Source: Fusobacterium ulcerans ATCC 49185 (GTDB lineage: Bacteria > Fusobacteriota > Fusobacteriia > Fusobacteriales > Fusobacteriaceae). From it: 64,000 bases of DNA. The number at the start of each line of letters is the position of its first letter. Within the stretch, counting starts at the first letter, position 1. Made by a program: the position numbers and the translations under genes. The notes beneath the pieces were generated by a model. That model ran no database searches, was not told the origin of the DNA, and saw nothing but the letters and a program-made list of their open reading frames with translations. Location of the stretch: contig NZ_LR215979.1 in NCBI RefSeq assembly GCF_900683735.1, positions 1,488,001 to 1,552,000 of the forward strand, in the 5' to 3' direction. This document shows positions 995 to 37,836 of this stretch, piece by piece.

Positions 995-2392
995 TTACTC
1001 TTCTGTTGGTGTACACATAGGATATTCCCCACTGAAACATCCCACACAATAATCTTTACAATTTAATGATTTTATCATATTATCCATTGATAAGTAATCC
1101 AATGTATCTGCATTTATCTCTTTTCTTATCTCATCAACTGTCATTCTAGCAGCTATAAGTTCTTCTCTGTGTGCAGTATCTATTCCATAGAAACAAGAGT
1201 ATTTAACTGCTGGAGAAGCCGATCTGAAGTGAACTTCCTTAGCTCCTGCTCTTCTTATTAAGTCAATAAGTATTTTACTTGTTGTTCCTCTTACTAGAGA
1301 GTCATCAATGATTACTACTCTTTTTCCTTCAAGCTGTACTCTTAAAGGATTAAGTTTTACCATTACAGCCTGTTCTCTTAAAGCTTGAGTTGGTTTGATA
1401 AATGTTCTTCCAATATATTTATTTTTGATAAGCCCCATAGCATATGGTATCCCACTTTCTTCAGCATATCCAATAGCTGCTGGTATTCCAGAATCTGGTA
1501 CTCCAATAACGATATCAGCTTCAATTTTCATCTGTTTAGCCAGAAGTCTTCCAGCTTTTACTCTTGCTTCATATACATTTATTCCATCTATAATACTATC
1601 AGGTCTTGCAAAGTAAATATGCTCAAATGAACAAGGTGCTACTTTATTATTTTCAGCATATCTGATTGATTTAACTCCTGTTTCATCTATGATTACCATT
1701 TCTCCAGCTTCTACATCTCTTATCAAATGCCCACCTATAGAATCTATAGCACATGATTCAGAAGCAAGGAAATAATCTCCCTCATCATTCATTCCAAGAC
1801 ATAAAGGTCTGATTCCATATGGATCTCTTACTCCTATAAGTTTGTTGTCTGCTAATATTACCAGAGCATAAGCTCCTTTTATAGCTCCAACTGTACTTCT
1901 GATAGCTTCTTCAAACCCATTCATAGCTTTTCTGGCTACCATTTTTATTATTACTTCTGAGTCAGTAGTTGAAGTAAATGTAGCTCCTCCATCTTCCAGC
2001 AATTCTCTTATTACTTTAGTATTAGTCAGATTTCCATTGTGAGCAACTGCTATCTGTCCCAGTTTAAATCTGCTTTCTAAAGGCTGCGCATTTTCTATTT
2101 TGCTTTCACCAGTAGTAGAATATCTTACATGTCCTATTGCTGCGTTCCCTTGAAGGTTGTTCAAAGTTTCTTGGGTAAATACATCAGCTGTAAGCCCCAT
2201 TCCTTTATAAGTTATCAGTTCTCCATTATTTGAAACAGTTATCCCTGCACTTTCCTGTCCCCTGTGTTGAAGAGCATATAGGGCATAGTAAGTTAATTGT
2301 GAAACTTCTTTTTGAGTTTTGCTGTATACTCCAAAAACTCCACATTCCTCTTCCATTTTGTCCTTTGCTAACATCATTTCTGTGCAGTTCAT
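995..2392 (-). CDS. purF: Amidophosphoribosyltransferase (glutamine PRPP amidotransferase)
   Basis: Commits PRPP to purine synthesis by transferring the glutamine amide to form phosphoribosylamine. The 465-residue product has the Ntn-type glutaminase domain first and the phosphoribosyltransferase domain second (PRPP loop VVIIDDSLVRGTT). The catalytic N-terminal cysteine would be Cys17 (EEECGVFG), exposed after removal of a 16-residue propeptide, as in the Bacillus-type enzyme. Cysteines expected to hold a [4Fe-4S] cluster are present (APCSFEH, YSCFYGID, CKDYCVGCFSGEYP), so this is the oxygen-labile cluster-bearing class. Its start codon overlaps the purC stop by one base (TAATG), which suggests translational coupling. 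Confidence 0.97.
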   Translation of the reverse strand: MNCTEMMLAKDKMEEECGVFGVYSKTQKEVSQLTYYALYALQHRGQESAGITVSNNGELITYKGMGLTADVFTQETLNNLQGNAAIGHVRYSTTGESKIENAQPLESRFKLGQIAVAHNGNLTNTKVIRELLEDGGATFTSTTDSEVIIKMVARKAMNGFEEAIRSTVGAIKGAYALVILADNKLIGVRDPYGIRPLCLGMNDEGDYFLASESCAIDSIGGHLIRDVEAGEMVIIDETGVKSIRYAENNKVAPCSFEHIYFARPDSIIDGINVYEARVKAGRLLAKQMKIEADIVIGVPDSGIPAAIGYAEESGIPYAMGLIKNKYIGRTFIKPTQALREQAVMVKLNPLRVQLEGKRVVIIDDSLVRGTTSKILIDLIRRAGAKEVHFRSASPAVKYSCFYGIDTAHREELIAARMTVDEIRKEINADTLDYLSMDNMIKSLNCKDYCVGCFSGEYPMCTPTEE

Positions 2393-3108
2393 TATTCAGC
2401 CCCCAATCTTTTTAAGACTTCAATATATGCTTCTTCGATTCCACCTAAATCTCTTCTGAATCTATCTTTATCTAATTTCATACCAGTTTCTTTATCCCAT
2501 AATCTGCAAGTATCTGGAGTGATTTCATCTGCAAGAAGGATTTCTCCTTTGCTGTTTTTACCAAATTCTATTTTGAAGTCAACTAAAGTAATTCCAATTT
2601 TATCAAAAGAATTTTTTAATAAGTCATTGATTTGCCCAGTTATTCTATAGATTTCAGCTAACTCTTCATAAGTAGCAAGTCCTAATGCAACTGCATGGTG
2701 ATCATTTATTAATGGGTCTCCATAAGCATCATTTTTATAGCAAATTTCAAATATGGTATTTACAGGTTTAGTTCCCTCTTCTACCCCTACTCTTTTAGCC
2801 ATTGATCCAGCTATAACATTTCTTACTATTACTTCTAAAGGAAATATTTTTACTTTTTGGCAAAGTTGATCTCTGTCATTAAGTACTTCTACTAAGTGAG
2901 TTTTGATACCATTTTTTTCAAGCATTTCAAATAACATAGCAGTTATTTTATTGTTCATTATCCCTTTATTTTCGATAGTTCCTTTTTTTGCTCCATTACC
3001 TGCTGTTGCATCATCTTTGTAATGAATAATAACTAGGTTCTCATCATCAGTTGAATATACTTGTTTAGCTTTTCCTTCATAAATAAACTCTTTTTTTTGT
3101 GCAGACAT
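2392..3108 (-). CDS. purC: Phosphoribosylaminoimidazole-succinocarboxamide synthase (SAICAR synthetase)
   Basis: Joins aspartate to CAIR with ATP. The 238-residue length is normal for the bacterial enzyme. Recognisable segments are the N-terminal [16 protein letters not shown]-binding hairpin, the [15 protein letters not shown] block, and the [10 protein letters not shown] and [12 protein letters not shown] segments that bind Mg-ATP. The SD AGGAGG lies 9 bases before the ATG. It sits between purE (63-base gap) and purF (one-base overlap) in the purine operon. Confidence 0.97.
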
Positions 3109-3171: not shown

Positions 3172-3651
3172 TTATAGCTCTACTCCAGTTTCATTATCAG
3201 CTATAAATTTTGCTTTCATATCTTTTCTGAATTTTACAAGTTTCTCTTTTAATTCAGGACATTTTAAAGAAAGCATTTGCACTGCAAGCATTCCAGCATT
3301 ATATGAGTTATTAACTCCAACTGTTGCTACTGGAATAGATTTAGGCATCTGTACTATTGAAAGAAGTGCATCCATTCCATTAAAAGCTGCTTCAATAGGT
3401 ACTCCTATTACAGGAAGCACAGTTTTAGATGCTATAACCCCAGGAAGGTGGGCAGCTAGCCCAGCTCCTGCTATTATTACTTCATATCCATCTTTTTCTA
3501 ATTTTTCCAATGTTTCTTCTAGTTTTTCTGGTACTCTGTGAGCAGAAAGAACATGAGCAGAATACTCAATTCCAAATTCTTTTAGGCAGTTAGCTGCTCC
3601 CTTCATTTTATCTGTATCTGATTTACTACCAAATATTATGGCAACTTTCAT
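3172..3651 (-). CDS. purE: 5-(carboxyamino)imidazole ribonucleotide mutase or AIR carboxylase (PurE)
   Basis: Produces CAIR. The 159-residue PurE fold shows the N-terminal GSKSDTDKM phosphate-binding loop, the SAHRVPE active-site segment, and a GAGLAAHLPGVIAS block. Class I PurE enzymes need a partner PurK; class II enzymes use AIR and CO2 directly. No purK lies in the window, and the SAHRVP segment differs from the usual class I SAHRTP, so the class is left open. The SD AGGAGG stands 9 bases upstream of the ATG. It lies between purL (47-base gap) and purC. Confidence 0.93.
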   Translation of the reverse strand: MKVAIIFGSKSDTDKMKGAANCLKEFGIEYSAHVLSAHRVPEKLEETLEKLEKDGYEVIIAGAGLAAHLPGVIASKTVLPVIGVPIEAAFNGMDALLSIVQMPKSIPVATVGVNNSYNAGMLAVQMLSLKCPELKEKLVKFRKDMKAKFIADNETGVEL

Positions 3652-3698: not shown

Positions 3699-6600
3699 CT
3701 ATTTAAAGTATTTAACTCCATTTTCAAATATCTTTTGTTCTTTGTTTCCAGTGATATTTTTGAAAATATTTTTACCTGCTCTTTCAGAATGTCCCATTTT
3801 ACCAAATACTTTACCATCTATTGAAGTGATTCCTTCTATAGCACATGTAGAGGCATTAGGATTAAATCTAAACTCATTAGTAGGAATTCCATCAAGATTT
3901 ACATATTGAGTTGCTACTTGTCCATTTTCAAATAGTTTTTTGATAACTTCATCATTGGCGAAGAATCTTCCCTCTCCATGTGATACAGCTATTTCAAATT
4001 CCTCTCCAGTTTCAATTCCTGCTAGCCATGGTGATTTATTTGAAGTAACTTTTGTTTTTACCATTTGAGAAACGTGTCTACCTATCTTGTTGAATGTAAG
4101 AGTTGGAGAATTTTCAGTAACTTTTCCAATTTCTCCATATGGCAGAAGTCCTGATTTTACAAGAGCTTGGAATCCATTACAAATACCTAGTATCAATCCA
4201 TCTCTTTCTAGGAATTTGGCTATTGCTTCTGCTATCTTAGGATTTGTAAGTACAGTTGCAATGAATTTTCCTGATCCATCAGGCTCATCTCCAGAACTAA
4301 ATCCTCCTGGAAACATAAGTATTTGTGAATTATTTATCTCTTTTACCATTTTTTCAATTGAATCATTGATATAATCTTGAGTTATATTTCTAAATAAAAG
4401 TATGTTCGCCTCTGCTCCAGCTTTTTCAAATACTCTAGCTGAATCATATTCACAGTTAGTTCCTGGAAATGCTGGCACTAATACTCTTGGTTTGGCAATT
4501 TTATTTTTACATACTATTATTTCTTTCTTTTCATATGGTGTCCAGATGTAATTTTCTACTTTTTCTATTGTTTTGTGTGGGAATACTGGGAATAGTTTAT
4601 CCAACCATACTTTTTCTCCTTCAGTCATGCAGATTTCTTTATCCCCAACTACTATCTTGTACTCTTTTATTGTTTCTCCCAACAGCTCTACATTTTTACC
4701 TGTAAGCTCTTTAGAAGTTTCTACTACAAATGTTCCATATCCTAACTTGAACAACTCTTCTCCAAGATCAGCTATTTTAGCTCCAACTCTGTTTCCTAGA
4801 GTCATTTTACTTACAGCTTCAGCTATTCCACCTCTTTTTAAAGTCATTGCTGACAGGATAGTTCCATTTTTAATATTTTCATATACAAACTCGAAGTTTT
4901 CTTTAAGTTCATCTATATTTGGCATATAGTTATCAAGCATATGATGTCTTATTAAGTATATTTTATTTCCAGCAGCTTTAAATTCTGGTGATATAACAAC
5001 ACTTGCTTTTACAGGAGTTACTGCAAAAGATATAAGTGTAGGTGGCACATGAATATCATTGAACGTTCCACTCATTGAGTCTTTTCCACCAATAGCTGGA
5101 ATTCCAAATCCTCTTTGTGCTTCTATAGTTCCTAACAATGCTGAAAATGGTTTTCCCCAGTTCATTGGGTTTTGTCCAAGCTTTTGGAAGTATTCTTGGA
5201 ATGAAAGTCTTACAGACTTGTAATCTGCTCCCACTGCAACTAATTTAGCAAGAGATTCAACTACTGCATAAGCTCCTCCATGGAATTGCGACCAAGATGA
5301 AAGCACAGGGTCATATCCCCAAGTAATAGCAGAAGCTGTATCAGTTTCTCCTTTTAATAGAGGTATTTTCTGTACACTTACATCAGTAGGAGTCATTTGA
5401 TATTTTCCACCAAATGGCATAAGTACTGTTGTTGCTCCTATTGTAGCATCAAATATCTCCATAAGTCCTTTTTGAGAAGCTACATTTAAAGAAGAAAGCA
5501 TATTCATCCATTTGTCTTTGATGTCTGCTCCTTCAAAATTAACTGCATTTAATGGAGTATTTTCTTTTATATCTTCAACTTCTACAGTAGTTTCTTGAGT
5601 AACTCCATTAGTATCAAGGAATTCTCTTGAAATATCTACTATTTTCTTACCTTTAAAATTAAGAACAAGTCTGTTGTCGTCTGTTACTACTGCAACTTCT
5701 GTTGCCAAAAGGTTTTCTTTTCCTGCAAGCTCCATAAATCTTTCTTTATCTTTAGCTTCAATTACCACTGCCATTCTCTCTTGTGATTCAGAAATAGCAA
5801 GTTCAGTGCCACTTAGTCCAAAATATTTAGTAGGAACTACATCAAGATTTATATCAAGTCCAGGAGCTAACTCTCCAATAGCTACTGATACTCCTCCAGC
5901 ACCAAAGTCATTACATTTTTTTATAAGTCTAGTAACTTCTGGATTTCTGAATAATCTTTGAATTTTTCTCTCTTCTGGTGCATTTCCTTTTTGAACTTCT
6001 GCACCACATAATCTCAACGAATCTCCTGTATGCTCTTTAGATGAACCAGTTGCTCCTCCGCAACCATCTCTTCCAGTTTTTCCTCCTAACAGGATAACTA
6101 TATCCCCTTTAGAAGCATTTTCTCTTCTCACCCAATCAGCTGGTACAGCACCAACTACTGCTCCAACTTCCATTCTTTTTGCTTTGTATCCATCATGATA
6201 TATTTCACATACATGTCCAGTTGTAAGTCCAATTTGGTTACCATAAGCTGCATATCCACTTGCTGCTCCAGTTGTTATTTTCTTTTGAGGAAGTTTTCCT
6301 TGAAGTGTATCTTCAAGTTTTTCCAATGGATTACCAGAGCCTGTAACTCTTATAGCCTGATAAACATATGATCTTCCTGATAATGGGTCTCTTATAGCTC
6401 CACCAAGACAAGTAGAAGCTCCTCCAAATGGTTCAATCTCTGTAGGATGGTTATGAGTTTCGTTCTTAAACATAAGAAGCCATTTCTCCATTTGTCCATC
6501 TACATCTACATCAATATATACAGAGCAGGCATTGATTTCATCAGATACTTCTAAATCATCAAGTTTTCCGCTTTTTCTCATTTCTTTTCCACAGATAGTT

Positions 6601-7424
6601 GCCATATCCATAAGAGAGATATATTTCTTTTCAAGTCTCTCTCCATGTACGAACTCTCTTGCTTTTAAGTATTCATCAAAAGCTTTTTGAAGTGTATCTC
6701 CAAAAGAAGTTTTTGGGAATACTATATCTTTTATTTTTGTTTCAAATGTAGTATGTCTGCAATGGTCAGACCAGTAAGTATCCAACACTTTTATTTCTGT
6801 TTCTGTAGGGTCTCTTTTTTCAGTATTTTTAAAGTATTCCTGAACAAAAGCTACGTCAGCTAATGTCATAGCCAGTCCAAGCTCTTCTCTGAAAGATTTT
6901 AATTCATCCATGTTGTAGTTTATGAATCCAGTGAAAACAGGTACATCTTGTGCCTTTTCTCCTTCTTCTATCTCTAATTTAGTAAGATCTTTTTCTCTCA
7001 TCTCAACTGGGTTGATGTAATATTTTTTAACTTTCTCTATATCTGCTTCTGCTATTTCTCCTTCAAGGATAATAACTCTTCCACTAGTAACAGATACATT
7101 TTGATTTTTATCAGATATCAGATTCAAACACTGCATAGCTGAGTCGGCTCTCTGGTCAAACTGTCCTGGTAAAAATTCTACTGCAAAATATTTTGCCCCT
7201 TTAGTATCAAGAGTTTCAGTTACAGTATCAGTAACTATTTCTGAGAATATAAGCTTTTTAGCTTCTGCTAATTCAGCAGCTTCAATATTAAATACATCAT
7301 AACAATTAAGAAGTCTTACTTTTGAAAGTTTTAGATCTTGAAAACTTTCTTTTAATTCATTTTCTAATCTCTTAGCCTCTAAATCAAATCCAGCTTTCTT
7401 TTCAACATAAATACGATAGTTCAT
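3699..7424 (-). CDS. purL: Phosphoribosylformylglycinamidine synthase, single-chain PurL with fused glutaminase
   Basis: Converts FGAR to FGAM with glutamine and ATP. At 1241 residues this is the large form in which the synthase domains and the class I glutaminase are on one chain, so no separate purQ or purS is needed. The synthase part shows DHCRHTTF, NETHNHPTEIEPFGGA and GGKTGRDGCGGATGSS. The glutaminase domain occupies about residues 1000-1241, with nucleophile Cys in LGICNGFQAL (near residue 1080) and His in AVSHGEGRFF. N-terminal and clade features fit the single-chain form seen in clostridia, streptococci and fusobacteria. The gene follows fhs by 51 bases, with SD AGGGGG. Confidence 0.97.
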   Translation of the reverse strand: MNYRIYVEKKAGFDLEAKRLENELKESFQDLKLSKVRLLNCYDVFNIEAAELAEAKKLIFSEIVTDTVTETLDTKGAKYFAVEFLPGQFDQRADSAMQCLNLISDKNQNVSVTSGRVIILEGEIAEADIEKVKKYYINPVEMREKDLTKLEIEEGEKAQDVPVFTGFINYNMDELKSFREELGLAMTLADVAFVQEYFKNTEKRDPTETEIKVLDTYWSDHCRHTTFETKIKDIVFPKTSFGDTLQKAFDEYLKAREFVHGERLEKKYISLMDMATICGKEMRKSGKLDDLEVSDEINACSVYIDVDVDGQMEKWLLMFKNETHNHPTEIEPFGGASTCLGGAIRDPLSGRSYVYQAIRVTGSGNPLEKLEDTLQGKLPQKKITTGAASGYAAYGNQIGLTTGHVCEIYHDGYKAKRMEVGAVVGAVPADWVRRENASKGDIVILLGGKTGRDGCGGATGSSKEHTGDSLRLCGAEVQKGNAPEERKIQRLFRNPEVTRLIKKCNDFGAGGVSVAIGELAPGLDINLDVVPTKYFGLSGTELAISESQERMAVVIEAKDKERFMELAGKENLLATEVAVVTDDNRLVLNFKGKKIVDISREFLDTNGVTQETTVEVEDIKENTPLNAVNFEGADIKDKWMNMLSSLNVASQKGLMEIFDATIGATTVLMPFGGKYQMTPTDVSVQKIPLLKGETDTASAITWGYDPVLSSWSQFHGGAYAVVESLAKLVAVGADYKSVRLSFQEYFQKLGQNPMNWGKPFSALLGTIEAQRGFGIPAIGGKDSMSGTFNDIHVPPTLISFAVTPVKASVVISPEFKAAGNKIYLIRHHMLDNYMPNIDELKENFEFVYENIKNGTILSAMTLKRGGIAEAVSKMTLGNRVGAKIADLGEELFKLGYGTFVVETSKELTGKNVELLGETIKEYKIVVGDKEICMTEGEKVWLDKLFPVFPHKTIEKVENYIWTPYEKKEIIVCKNKIAKPRVLVPAFPGTNCEYDSARVFEKAGAEANILLFRNITQDYINDSIEKMVKEINNSQILMFPGGFSSGDEPDGSGKFIATVLTNPKIAEAIAKFLERDGLILGICNGFQALVKSGLLPYGEIGKVTENSPTLTFNKIGRHVSQMVKTKVTSNKSPWLAGIETGEEFEIAVSHGEGRFFANDEVIKKLFENGQVATQYVNLDGIPTNEFRFNPNASTCAIEGITSIDGKVFGKMGHSERAGKNIFKNITGNKEQKIFENGVKYFK

Positions 7425-7475: not shown

Positions 7476-9140
7476 TTAGAATAGTCCATCTATTTTTCCA
7501 TTTTCATCAATATCTATAGATTCAGCTGCTGGTTTTTTAGGTAGTCCAGGCATATCTATTATATCTCCAGCCATAGCTACTATAAATCCTGCTCCAGCTG
7601 ATATTCTTAATTCTTTTACAGATACTGTAAATCCAGTAGGTCTTCCTAAAAGTGCTGCATTATCTGATAATGATTTTTGAGTTTTTGACATACACACTGG
7701 AAGTTTTCCATATCCTAGTTCATCTATAGTTTTAAGCATTTTCTTAGCAGGCCCAGTAAATTCTACTCCATCTGCCCCATATATTTCTTTTGCTATTTTT
7801 TCTATTTTTTCTTTTATACTCATATCTAAATCATATAGTGGAGTATAGTTGTCAGTTCCTTTTTCTAATTGAGCAAGAACTTCCTGAGCAAGAGCGATTC
7901 CTCCCTCTCCTCCTTTAGCCCACACTTCACAGAGAGCCACAGGTACACCAAATTCTCTGCAGTGCTTATCAACAAATTCAAGTTCTTTTTCAGTATCGCT
8001 TACAAATCTATTGATGGCAACAACTACTGGTAAATTATATTTTTTCATATTTTCTATGTGTTTATCTAAATTTGCTATTCCTTTTTCTAATGCTTCAAGA
8101 TTTTCTTCTGAAAGCTCTTTAGCTCCACCATGATGCTTTAAAGCTCTTACAGTTGCTACTACTACTACACAATTAGGAGTAAGTCCACCTTTTCTGCATT
8201 TTATATCAAGGAATTTTTCTGCTCCAAGATCAGCAGCAAATCCAGCTTCAGTTATTGTATAATCAGAAAGTTTAAGTGCAAGTTTAGTAGCTAAGATTGA
8301 GTTGCATCCATGAGCTATATTTGCAAAAGGTCCTCCATGAATAAATACTGGTGTATTTTCCAACGTCTGTACAAGGTTGGGTTTGATAGCTTCTTTAAGA
8401 AGTGCTGTAATAGCTCCTTCTATTTTAAGATCTCCTACTTTTAGAGCTTTTCCATCTCTTGCATAACCAAATACCATACTTCTTATTTTATCTTTAAGAT
8501 CTGAAAGTGATGTAGCAAGACATAAGGCTGCCATTATTTCAGATGCAACAGTGATTTGGAATGAACTTTCTCTAGGAATTCCGTTAGCCTTTCCTCCAAG
8601 TCCTATCACTATATTTCTAAGTGCTCTGTCATTCATATCCAGAACTCTTTTCCATGTTATTTTTGTAAGATCTATATCCAAAACATTTCCAGAATTGATA
8701 TGATTGTCTATACAAGCTGCTATAAGATTATGAGCAACTCCAATAGCATGAAGATCTCCTGTAAAATGTAAGTTTATATCTTCCATAGGTATAACTTGTG
8801 AATATCCTCCTCCAGTAGCTCCACCTTTCATTCCAAATACTGGCCCCAATGAAGGTTCTCTAAGAGCAGCTATAGAAGATTTCCCAAGTTTGTTAAGTGC
8901 TTGTGTAAGTCCAACTGTAACAGTTGATTTACCTTCCCCAGCAGGAGTAGGTGTGATAGCTGTAACTAATACCAGTTTTCCATCTTTTTTATTCTCTAGG
9001 TTTTTAAGTACTTTCAAATCTACCTTAGCTTTGTATTTCCCGTATTGTTCGATGCTGTCCTCATCAAGTCCTATCTTTTTTGCGATTTCCATAATGTTGA
9101 CTATTTTAGCTTCCTGTGCAATTTGAATATCAGTTTTCAC
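7476..9140 (-). CDS. fhs: Formate--tetrahydrofolate ligase
   Basis: Makes 10-formyl-THF from formate, THF and ATP, supplying the one-carbon units used twice in purine synthesis. The 554 residues match the family length. The ATP-binding loop [18 protein letters not shown] sits near residue 65, followed by [19 protein letters not shown] and the [13 protein letters not shown] block. The start is GTG (9138-9140): it is preceded by SD GGGAGGAAA and there is no better ATG. It is the first structural gene after the riboswitch, leader ORF and terminator, 35 bases past the terminator hairpin. Its position at the head of the pur operon ties formate use to purine demand. Confidence 0.97.
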
Positions 9141-9174
9141 AAATTTCCTCCCTTGAAATTTTATATAAATAATT

Positions 9175-9221
9175 AAAAAGGCCTAAGTACACACTCATTC
9201 CGTTAAGTGCACACTTAGACC
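9175..9221 (-). terminator. Intrinsic terminator in the fhs leader (attenuator)
   Basis: On the minus strand a 16-bp stem (arms 9206-9221 and 9180-9195, with some G-U pairs) closes a loop of about ten bases and is followed directly by five U. It lies just upstream of the fhs SD and so would stop transcription before the purine genes. The stop codon of the leader ORF (9215-9217) is inside the 5' arm, so a ribosome finishing the leader would block hairpin formation. Confidence 0.8.
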
Positions 9222-9301
9222 TTTGTTTTATTCTCAGTTTGATTTACTATATTATTTCTATTCTGTCCGATTTTCTTTTTTATTCTTTTATGAGATAACA
9301 T
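9215..9301 (-). CDS. 28-residue leader ORF upstream of fhs
   Basis: ATG at 9299-9301 is preceded by a strong SD (AAAGGAGG, 8 bases upstream). Twenty-eight codons, rich in Lys, Asn and Ile, end in TAA at 9215-9217. The peptide begins MLSHKRIKKKIGQNR and matches nothing I recognise; there is no run of one regulatory amino acid, so classical amino-acid attenuation is unlikely. The stop lies inside the 5' arm of the terminator before fhs. The SD and AUG can pair with RNA just 3' of the purine aptamer. I infer that translation of the ORF, rather than the peptide, is the regulatory event. It could also be a small functional protein. Confidence 0.6.
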   Translation of the reverse strand: MLSHKRIKKKIGQNRNNIVNQTENKTKV

Positions 9302-9477
9302 AGTATAATCCTCCTTTAAATTGCTTTTACTACTTCATTTCAAATACTATTTTAGATGAAGTAAATCTTTTTTTCAAAAAATCAAAAAACAAAGATTATC
9401 TATGTTTACTTCACCCATAGCAGCTATTTTAAGGTTAGCCGTAGAAACTCCTGTCCATATCACAGGTATATATGAGT
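9297..9477 (-). ncRNA. Purine (guanine-class) riboswitch with expression platform
   Basis: The aptamer spans about 9413-9477 on the minus strand. P1 is ACUCAUA with UAUGGGU. P2 carries the conserved loop GAUAUGG, J2/3 reads GUUUCUAC, and L3 has the CC needed for the loop-loop contact. The specificity base at the position equivalent to 74 is C, which predicts guanine rather than adenine. The platform has two exclusive states. In one, 9405-9415 (including the P1 3' strand) pairs with 9355-9365. In the other, 9391-9406 pairs with the leader SD and start (9297-9314; 16 pairs with one bulged A) while 9356-9363 pairs with 9331-9338. Ligand binding should favour the second, OFF state. Confidence 0.88.
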
Positions 9478-9496
9478 CCTTTATTACCTTACTTTT

Positions 9497-9525
9497 AGGA
9501 TATCATATATACTGGATTTTGTCAA
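9497..9525 (-). promoter_or_regulatory. Sigma-70 promoter of the fhs-pur operon
   Basis: On the minus strand the perfect -35 TTGACA (9520-9525) is followed after 17 bases by -10 TATCCT (9497-9502). Transcription should begin near 9490, a few bases before the riboswitch aptamer. Confidence 0.8.
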
Positions 9526-9586: not shown

Positions 9587-10036
9587 TTAGTCGAAATTTC
9601 GCTCAGATAAACGAACGATTAATCCCTCAATGGCAAGTATGTATCCTTCCTTTCCAAAGCCGCAGATTTGTCCTATACAAGCAGGAGCAGTATATGACTT
9701 GTGTCTGAACTCCTCTCTCTGATGGATATTTGAAAGATGAACCTCTACTGTTGGAATATTTATACTTTTGATTGCATCATAAAGAGCTATTGAAGTATGA
9801 GTATACGCTCCGGGATTTATAACTATACCATCATATTTTTCAAAATATGCCATTTGAAGCATATTTATCATTTCTCCTTCTATATTACTTTGAAATATAT
9901 TTATTTCTATATCACAATTATCAAATTTATCCATAATATATTTACATACATTTTGATAATTGTCCTCCCCATATATATTTTTCTCTCTTATACCTAGAAA
10001 ATTTAAGTTAGGTCCATTTAATATCATTATTTTCAT
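9587..10036 (-). CDS. aroQ: Type II 3-dehydroquinate dehydratase
   Basis: Third step of the shikimate pathway: dehydrates 3-dehydroquinate to 3-dehydroshikimate. The 149-residue chain has the type II signatures: N-terminal NGPNLNFLG, IYG before the active-site lid, INPGAYTHTS, and the substrate-binding segment VEVHLSNIHQREEFRHKS with its catalytic His. It follows aroE by 14 bases and is the last gene of that two-gene unit. The purine operon promoter begins 62 bases beyond its stop, and no terminator is evident between them. Confidence 0.95.
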   Translation of the reverse strand: MKIMILNGPNLNFLGIREKNIYGEDNYQNVCKYIMDKFDNCDIEINIFQSNIEGEMINMLQMAYFEKYDGIVINPGAYTHTSIALYDAIKSINIPTVEVHLSNIHQREEFRHKSYTAPACIGQICGFGKEGYILAIEGLIVRLSERNFD

Positions 10037-37713: not shown

Positions 37714-37800
37714 GGCTGAAAAGATAACTTGCTTCCCTCCGCTGGTACTATCCAGATCAGGTTCCAAGGGTCAGGTTTTATCCTTCTCAGCTTTTCAGCT
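37714..37800 (-). ncRNA. TPP riboswitch aptamer (THI element)
   Basis: Minus-strand signature elements are intact: GCTGAGAAGG at the start, ACCCTTGGAACCTGATCTGG in the core, then ATAGTACCAGCGGAGGGAAG. P1 is GCTGAAAAG with CTTTTCAGC. It controls thiC and the genes behind it and lies about 115 bases before the thiC start. Confidence 0.96.
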
Positions 37801-37836
37801 CCCCTAGCAATTTTAATTATTATTTTCTTTTTTACG

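Follow-up and report, generated by a model that had tools for sequence, protein, structure and literature searches.

The leader of the fhs–pur operon in the 64,000-nucleotide stretch of DNA analysed here (the window) quite probably works as a guanine OFF switch on the translation of a 28-codon leader ORF, whereby the translating ribosome would serve as the antiterminator. The same relay, in which guanine hides the leader start and leaves the terminator on, had been proposed in a preliminary description made from the letters alone. It is supported by the conservation of the ORF and of the pairing that hides its start, by pairing elements that were rebuilt in relatives, and by the absence of an RNA antiterminator. 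These features, together with two mutually exclusive folds, were computed in this analysis, and from them we infer that guanine is the ligand, that the ORF is translated and that a ribosome blocks termination. If true, purine riboswitches would have a third output beside a terminator or the gene's own SD, in which the sensor decides on the presence of a ribosome at a terminator.

In the proposed mechanism, the aptamer would fold first during transcription of the leader. Without guanine, the segment 9355–9365 would invade the 3′ strand of P1, and the hairpin formed in this way would enclose the anti-SD strand at 9391–9406. The SD of the 28-codon ORF would then emerge free and a ribosome could initiate close behind RNA polymerase. 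At the stop codon this ribosome would cover the 5′ arm of the terminator and block the hairpin, and fhs and the pur genes would be transcribed. When guanine is bound, P1 would be held and the anti-SD strand would pair with the SD and the AUG, which would prevent ribosome loading; with no ribosome on the leader the terminator would fold, and the operon would be off. Since the operon makes purines, repression by guanine is the expected sign.

Elements of the leader and their predicted folds

The fhs–pur leader lies throughout on the minus strand, as do all features described in this section, between aroQ (9587–10036) and fhs (7476–9140). The claimed consensus promoter was confirmed at 9525–9497, with the sequence TTGACA-17-TATCCT and an extended −10 element (TG), and the TTGACA is kept in relatives of the genus. 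The first gene of the operon, fhs, encodes a formate–tetrahydrofolate ligase (NF010030, 916 bits) and has a GTG start with an SD at 9154–9147. It is followed by the genes for a purL-type FGAM synthase (3699–7424; TIGR01857, 1941 bits), purE (3172–3651; TIGR01162), purC (2392–3108; TIGR00081) and purF (995–2392; TIGR01134), which gives the order fhs-purL-purE-purC-purF; for each gene, an NCBIfam equivalog or equivalog_domain model scored above the cut-off. No match was found in the phage records searched for related DNA. The source genome belongs to the Fusobacteriaceae. The family sample contains 14 genera, among them its own with 12 species (G000–G011).

The Rfam purine riboswitch model RF00167 matches at 9495–9398 with 58.1 bits, compared to a gathering score of 37, and reaches 47–67 bits in relatives. 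The aptamer core spans 9413–9477, with P1 formed by 9477–9471 and 9419–9413, followed by P2, P3 and the J2/3 segment GUUUCUAC. The J3/1 nucleotide that precedes the 3′ strand of P1 is a C, as in guanine-type aptamers. The guanine-type aptamer read earlier from the letters was thus recovered, and the C at the specificity position suggests guanine as the ligand.

Two pairings decide between the predicted states. The anti-SD strand (9391–9406) pairs with the translation start region of the leader ORF, which contains the SD and the AUG (9297–9314), in exactly the 16 pairs with one bulge that had been described, whereby two of the pairs are G-U and A9304 is the bulged nucleotide. This duplex has an energy of −16.4 kcal/mol, which none of 500 shuffles attained, and it appears in the minimum free energy (MFE) structure when P1 is constrained. 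The alternative anti-P1 helix was likewise found as proposed: its 5′ arm (9405–9415), which overlaps the P1 3′ strand, forms 11 pairs, one of them G-U, with its 3′ arm (9355–9365) at −11.6 kcal/mol (1 of 500 shuffles as stable), and also the part of the helix that begins in the P1 3′ strand is matched by 1 of 500 shuffles. The pairs are mostly kept in six species. By folding, duplex calculation and alignment, the 3′ arm would pair in the P1 state with AAATGAAGTAGTAA (9327–9340) instead, a partnership of the predicted OFF fold that is clear in the MFE structures and the alignment only for G000–G003. The anti-SD strand sits in the loop of the anti-P1 hairpin, and nucleotides 9405–9406 are common to both helices, so the two pairings cannot coexist in a nested fold. 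The 500 shuffles of such duplex tests keep single-base composition only, whereas the 100 shuffles of the joint test described below keep dinucleotides.

Folding with and without P1, which had been suggested as a check, gave a divided answer. With P1 constrained, the MFE structure hides the SD as anticipated, but in the finished leader the P1 state with the sequestered SD roughly equals the alternative in energy or has a slight advantage even when no ligand is present; excluding P1 there carries a cost of 0.5–1 kcal/mol for the closest species, with a ddG between about +0.5 and +1. In transcripts that end short of the SD, anti-P1 is favoured by roughly 2–10 kcal/mol in nearly all genus members, namely by about 2–5 kcal/mol in G000 and G002–G004, by 6–10 kcal/mol in the others and by 13 kcal/mol in G007; in G001 it is barely favoured, by about 2 kcal/mol and at intermediate lengths only. 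Because equilibrium slightly prefers the P1/SD-sequestered state in the closest species even without ligand, kinetic trapping would be required. Going by these folding energies, the switch is best read as kinetic and co-transcriptional, with ligand occupancy at the time when anti-P1 is transcribed deciding whether the SD is hidden later. Such a kinetic decision is in line with known riboswitch practice.

The leader ORF MLSHKRIKKKIGQNRNNIVNQTENKTKV (9215–9301) starts with ATG, is preceded by a strong, near-perfect SD AAAGGAGG, appears in the ORF list and has equivalents in relatives. Its stop codon UAA (9217–9215) lies, as had been noted for the 28-codon frame, within the 5′ arm of the intrinsic terminator before fhs (9177–9224), where it forms nucleotides 8–10 of a 48-nt hairpin with a stem of about 20 bp. 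The terminator scan of the 0.9-kb region gave three terminator-like sites, two of which are versions of 9224–9177, against 0.2 expected. Among 17 sequences, the stem is maintained at four positions by pairs that changed on both sides. Taken by itself, this species gives a probability of about 0.06 that a frame beginning at the given start would by chance stay open as far as the hairpin and stop within it.

The leader ORF and its predicted coupling to the riboswitch in relatives

A leader ORF of 27–47 codons that is preceded by an SD and has its stop within a terminator hairpin upstream of fhs is present in 19 of the 19 leaders first examined. These comprise the 12 genus members and seven species from three other genera (three g12 species, G015 and three g14 species), and their hairpins were located by an anchored search. 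With the GG of the arm as the start of the count, the stop is found at hairpin nucleotide 5, 16, 27 or 28, and three different frames lead to it. After shuffling of the ORF interior, the chance of an open run into the hairpin with a stop there is 0.004–0.096 per species; these values are not independent and not to be multiplied, since the species are related, but between genera no relationship can be recognised in the intervening sequences.

The arrangement extends further. In genus g13 the stop falls inside the hairpin by a strict rule in three species (G080, G083, G034), and at the hairpin edge in G084 and, by eye, likewise in G082, G079 and G023. In an Ilyobacter genome (G020) it is located late in the hairpin. 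Aptamer, ORF and terminator are all present in G055, a Sebaldella-like genome that belongs to another family (f4); its stop occupies position 20 of the 42 hairpin nucleotides. This brings the total to about 28 species in seven genera of the Fusobacteriaceae, plus one species outside the family. Where fhs has no preceding terminator, as in several species of g2, g3, g4, g6, g8 and g11 and in most of f4, no such ORF was seen, and a simple scan of fhs neighbours in 80 more distant genomes yielded an ORF ending in a terminator only in L063 (Ilyobacter). In G022, G078, G082, G079 and G020, ORF and terminator occur without an Rfam purine match or a recognisable aptamer, whereby absence in G079 was judged from its near-identity to G082. 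In the leaders of these last two (L143, L146) the aptamer is apparently eroded, and a P2-like hairpin CCTC..GAGG is left over just before the start of the leader ORF.

Within the genus of the window, the coupling of the riboswitch to the SD is found throughout. The anti-SD:SD duplex is better than nearly all shuffles in 12 of 12 members (0–40 of 500 reach its energy). All 12 also have the predicted structures of a translational OFF platform, in which P1 frees the anti-SD strand and the alternative helix sequesters it. When anti-P1 stability and the change in SD accessibility are tested jointly, 0–3 of 100 dinucleotide shuffles match in each of the 12 species; the SD contrast alone is modest in G003 and G008–G011, where 18–36 of 100 shuffles match. 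Two designs underlie this behaviour. In the first (G000–G004, G007), the anti-SD strand reads CAUA..AUAAUC or a variant thereof, and anti-P1 runs via the P1 3′ strand; in G007 it can use either the 3′ or the 5′ strand. In the second (G005, G006, G008–G011), an anti-SD strand of the UUCCUUUU type precedes GGUAUAUAUGA, a segment complementary to UCAUAUAUACC, the P1 5′ strand. We regard two unrelated designs with the same predicted logical output in one genus as the strongest single argument for the proposed interpretation, and an anti-SD and anti-P1 apparently rebuilt from unrelated sequence in half of the genus outweighs sequence conservation as evidence. Loss of the ORF or of the SD-sequestering pairing in close relatives had been named as an outcome that would speak against the relay; the pairing is kept in the 12 genus members by two unrelated sequences, and the ORF is kept in close and also in more distant relatives.

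Outside the genus the picture differs. A coupling of P1 to the SD was not found in G033, G015 and g14, nor is it seen in the genera g5, g12 and g14 as such, though ORF and terminator are present there, and G055 combines a strong anti-P1 via the 5′ strand (0 of 500 shuffles) with a marginal anti-SD (43 of 500). The ORF–terminator module is thus more widely distributed than the riboswitch–SD coupling, and it may also be the older of the two. In the P1 state of g14, a hairpin CCGACAUUUA...UAAAUGUCGG-AUUUUU becomes free upstream of the ORF. It is missing from the list of the simple terminator scan and is probably, by its predicted fold, a conventional direct terminator.

Known systems and rival explanations

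The components of the proposed relay have precedents in the uORFs of B12 and Mg2+ riboswitches of M. tuberculosis and in pyrBI of E. coli, and their combination is new for the purine class as far as we found. The pyrBI attenuator involves a leader polypeptide and UTP-dependent pausing of polymerase; its input is this pausing, whereas in the fhs leader a riboswitch would gate initiation at the leader ORF. The fhs leader would resemble pyrBI in that a ribosome near polymerase prevents an intrinsic terminator (PMC4824070). The two also agree in having a leader stop within the hairpin or close to it, a position found in all 19 leaders and in further genomes. In E. coli, a stop codon close to the hairpin represses an intrinsic terminator almost fully, with recovery by a distance of about 27–30 nt; uncoupling of translation abolishes the repression, and pyrBI behaves similarly (PMC4824070). 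In M. tuberculosis, a B12 riboswitch masks the SD of the upstream ORF uPPE2 by an anti-TIR/anti-anti-TIR arrangement, and translation of this uORF is needed for ppe2 (PMC11260477). As proposed for the fhs leader, a riboswitch there hides the SD of an upstream ORF, but the switch is of the B12 and not of the purine class, and ppe2 is reached by termination–reinitiation at overlapping ORFs (PMC11260477), whereas the stop of the fhs leader ORF lies in a terminator and at a distance of 74 nt from fhs. The Mg2+-responsive Mbox of pe20 controls uORF2/rv1805A and is tied to premature termination (PMC12810186). It shares with the proposed fhs relay a translational platform on a small upstream ORF with a link to termination, but termination at pe20 is Rho-dependent and, according to the authors, may not depend on uORF translation (PMC12810186), while the fhs terminator is intrinsic and overlaps the stop. 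The earlier judgement that a relay through a leader ORF would be unusual therefore holds, but the relay is not unprecedented, given these two riboswitch–uORF cases (PMC11260477, PMC12810186).

For purine riboswitches, the sequence riboswitch, leader ORF, intrinsic terminator was not found in the literature searched, which covered the field in part. The xpt switch of B. subtilis and the add switch of Vibrio belong to the same family RF00167, and the add type also controls an SD. Both act directly on a terminator or on the SD of the regulated gene and not via a leader ORF. Transcription–translation coupling is, to our knowledge, hardly known in this phylum, and about 28 related leaders with two expression platforms would offer a compact natural system for testing it outside E. 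coli. The case also cautions against dismissing a small ORF located between a riboswitch and a gene as noise, since it can be a working part.

Four other explanations were weighed against the relay. It might be that the leader is a conventional transcriptional purine switch with a direct RNA antiterminator and the ORF a chance frame, as xpt-type switches act in this way and g14 probably does so with its early hairpin. However, when the whole leader of 17 aptamer-bearing species was searched for duplexes with the terminator arm, no partner was better than shuffles, and the platform is positioned about 130–190 nt ahead of the terminator. A direct RNA antiterminator was thus rejected, and we hold this explanation to be the least probable of the four. 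Since no RNA partner of the terminator arm was found, a ribosome, or some protein, is left as the antiterminator. Only marginally more credible is a functional basic micropeptide as the product of the small ORF, with a translational riboswitch controlling it and the hairpin merely terminating its gene. Indeed, six species keep the N-terminal sequence MLSxK[RK]IKKK and another group keeps NKGI[IV]VN, with pN/pS values of about 0.55–0.6; within genus groups the ratio is 0.5–0.7, apart from one pair with 2.0 that rests on very few changes. Yet the peptides are unrelated between genera, a Pfam search of the leader peptide gave no match, and the ORFs use three frames and vary in length, so that only the position of the stop in the hairpin is kept. 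A functional peptide was therefore rejected on account of the missing Pfam match, the weak purifying selection and the lack of conservation across genera, and the conserved N-termini of subgroups (MLSxKxIKKK; MLFV) leave a small chance for a peptide role. Because the peptides are unrelated between genera and pN/pS is about 0.55–0.7, it appears that translation into the hairpin is kept rather than the product.

It is also quite improbable that the riboswitch sets leader translation in order to expose untranslated RNA to Rho, with the intrinsic hairpin being secondary. A rho gene is encoded in the same genome (543 bits), and the uORF of the M. tuberculosis Mbox is controlled together with Rho-dependent termination (PMC12810186). 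A Rho relay would terminate without an intrinsic hairpin, whereas here a strong, conserved intrinsic terminator is present, with the stop inside it in the species examined, a placement that Rho would not require; moreover, the leader is short and A-rich. More weight, though still little, is given to an older attenuator gated by translation that responds mainly to something other than guanine, for example to ATP/GTP-dependent polymerase speed, and to which the riboswitch would be a secondary input added in some lineages. The five species with the module and no intact purine aptamer, as well as the g14 module with its likely direct terminator upstream, would fit this explanation. The same is true for the unusual A-richness of the leader ORFs in the genus: the ORF of G000 contains 56% A, which is reached by 4 of 5055 coding windows of the same length in the window, and most genus relatives are also unusually A-rich. 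But A-richness may merely keep the RNA unstructured, the A content is ordinary in g14 and in the aptamer-less G022 and G078, and the riboswitch is tightly wired to the SD in the genus of the window. A low 10-formyl-THF/fMet signal acting on leader initiation, considered for the aptamer-less species, was set aside since it would give positive feedback on fhs.

As a tentative extension of the preferred reading, in which leader translation is switched off by guanine, the leader may represent a widely kept fhs–pur attenuator of the Fusobacteriales. The leader-ORF ribosome would integrate guanine, via the riboswitch, and purine-nucleotide supply, via polymerase speed over the A-rich ORF, while the riboswitch would have been lost or wired in several ways (to the SD by two architectures, or to a separate terminator early in the leader), which would amount to a modular combination of a riboswitch and a pyrBI-type gate. 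The second input, a pyrBI-like sensing of ATP through polymerase speed, is speculation.

Terminator arms and further riboswitches

The arms of the fhs terminator (window 9177–9224 and relatives) follow the pattern YCTAAGT...ACTTAGR, which eight genera keep as a sequence, a conservation beyond what a terminator requires, and the reading frame through them differs among relatives. A protein-binding or pausing role of these arms is possible. The idea that the arm CTAAGTGTnnACTT is a dispersed operator or repeat was dropped, as eight genomes show no enrichment of the pattern over its reversed control.

In genus g8, a ZTP (pfl) riboswitch (L054 1369–1448), which also is a purine-pathway riboswitch on fhs, takes the place of the purine switch, and no leader ORF was seen with it in L054. 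A second purine riboswitch is located directly 3′ of fhs in G015, in g14 and in the Sebaldella-like genome (L048 3175–3272, L049 3152–3249, L051 1414–1511, L163 1419–1516). The genome of the window also has a second purine riboswitch (L002 1501–1599), upstream of a xanthine/uracil-permease-like gene and with no obvious leader ORF. Finally, the window contains a TPP riboswitch at 37717–37815 on the minus strand (79 bits); a terminator hairpin of ordinary appearance comes after it, together with an ORF that presumably is thiC.
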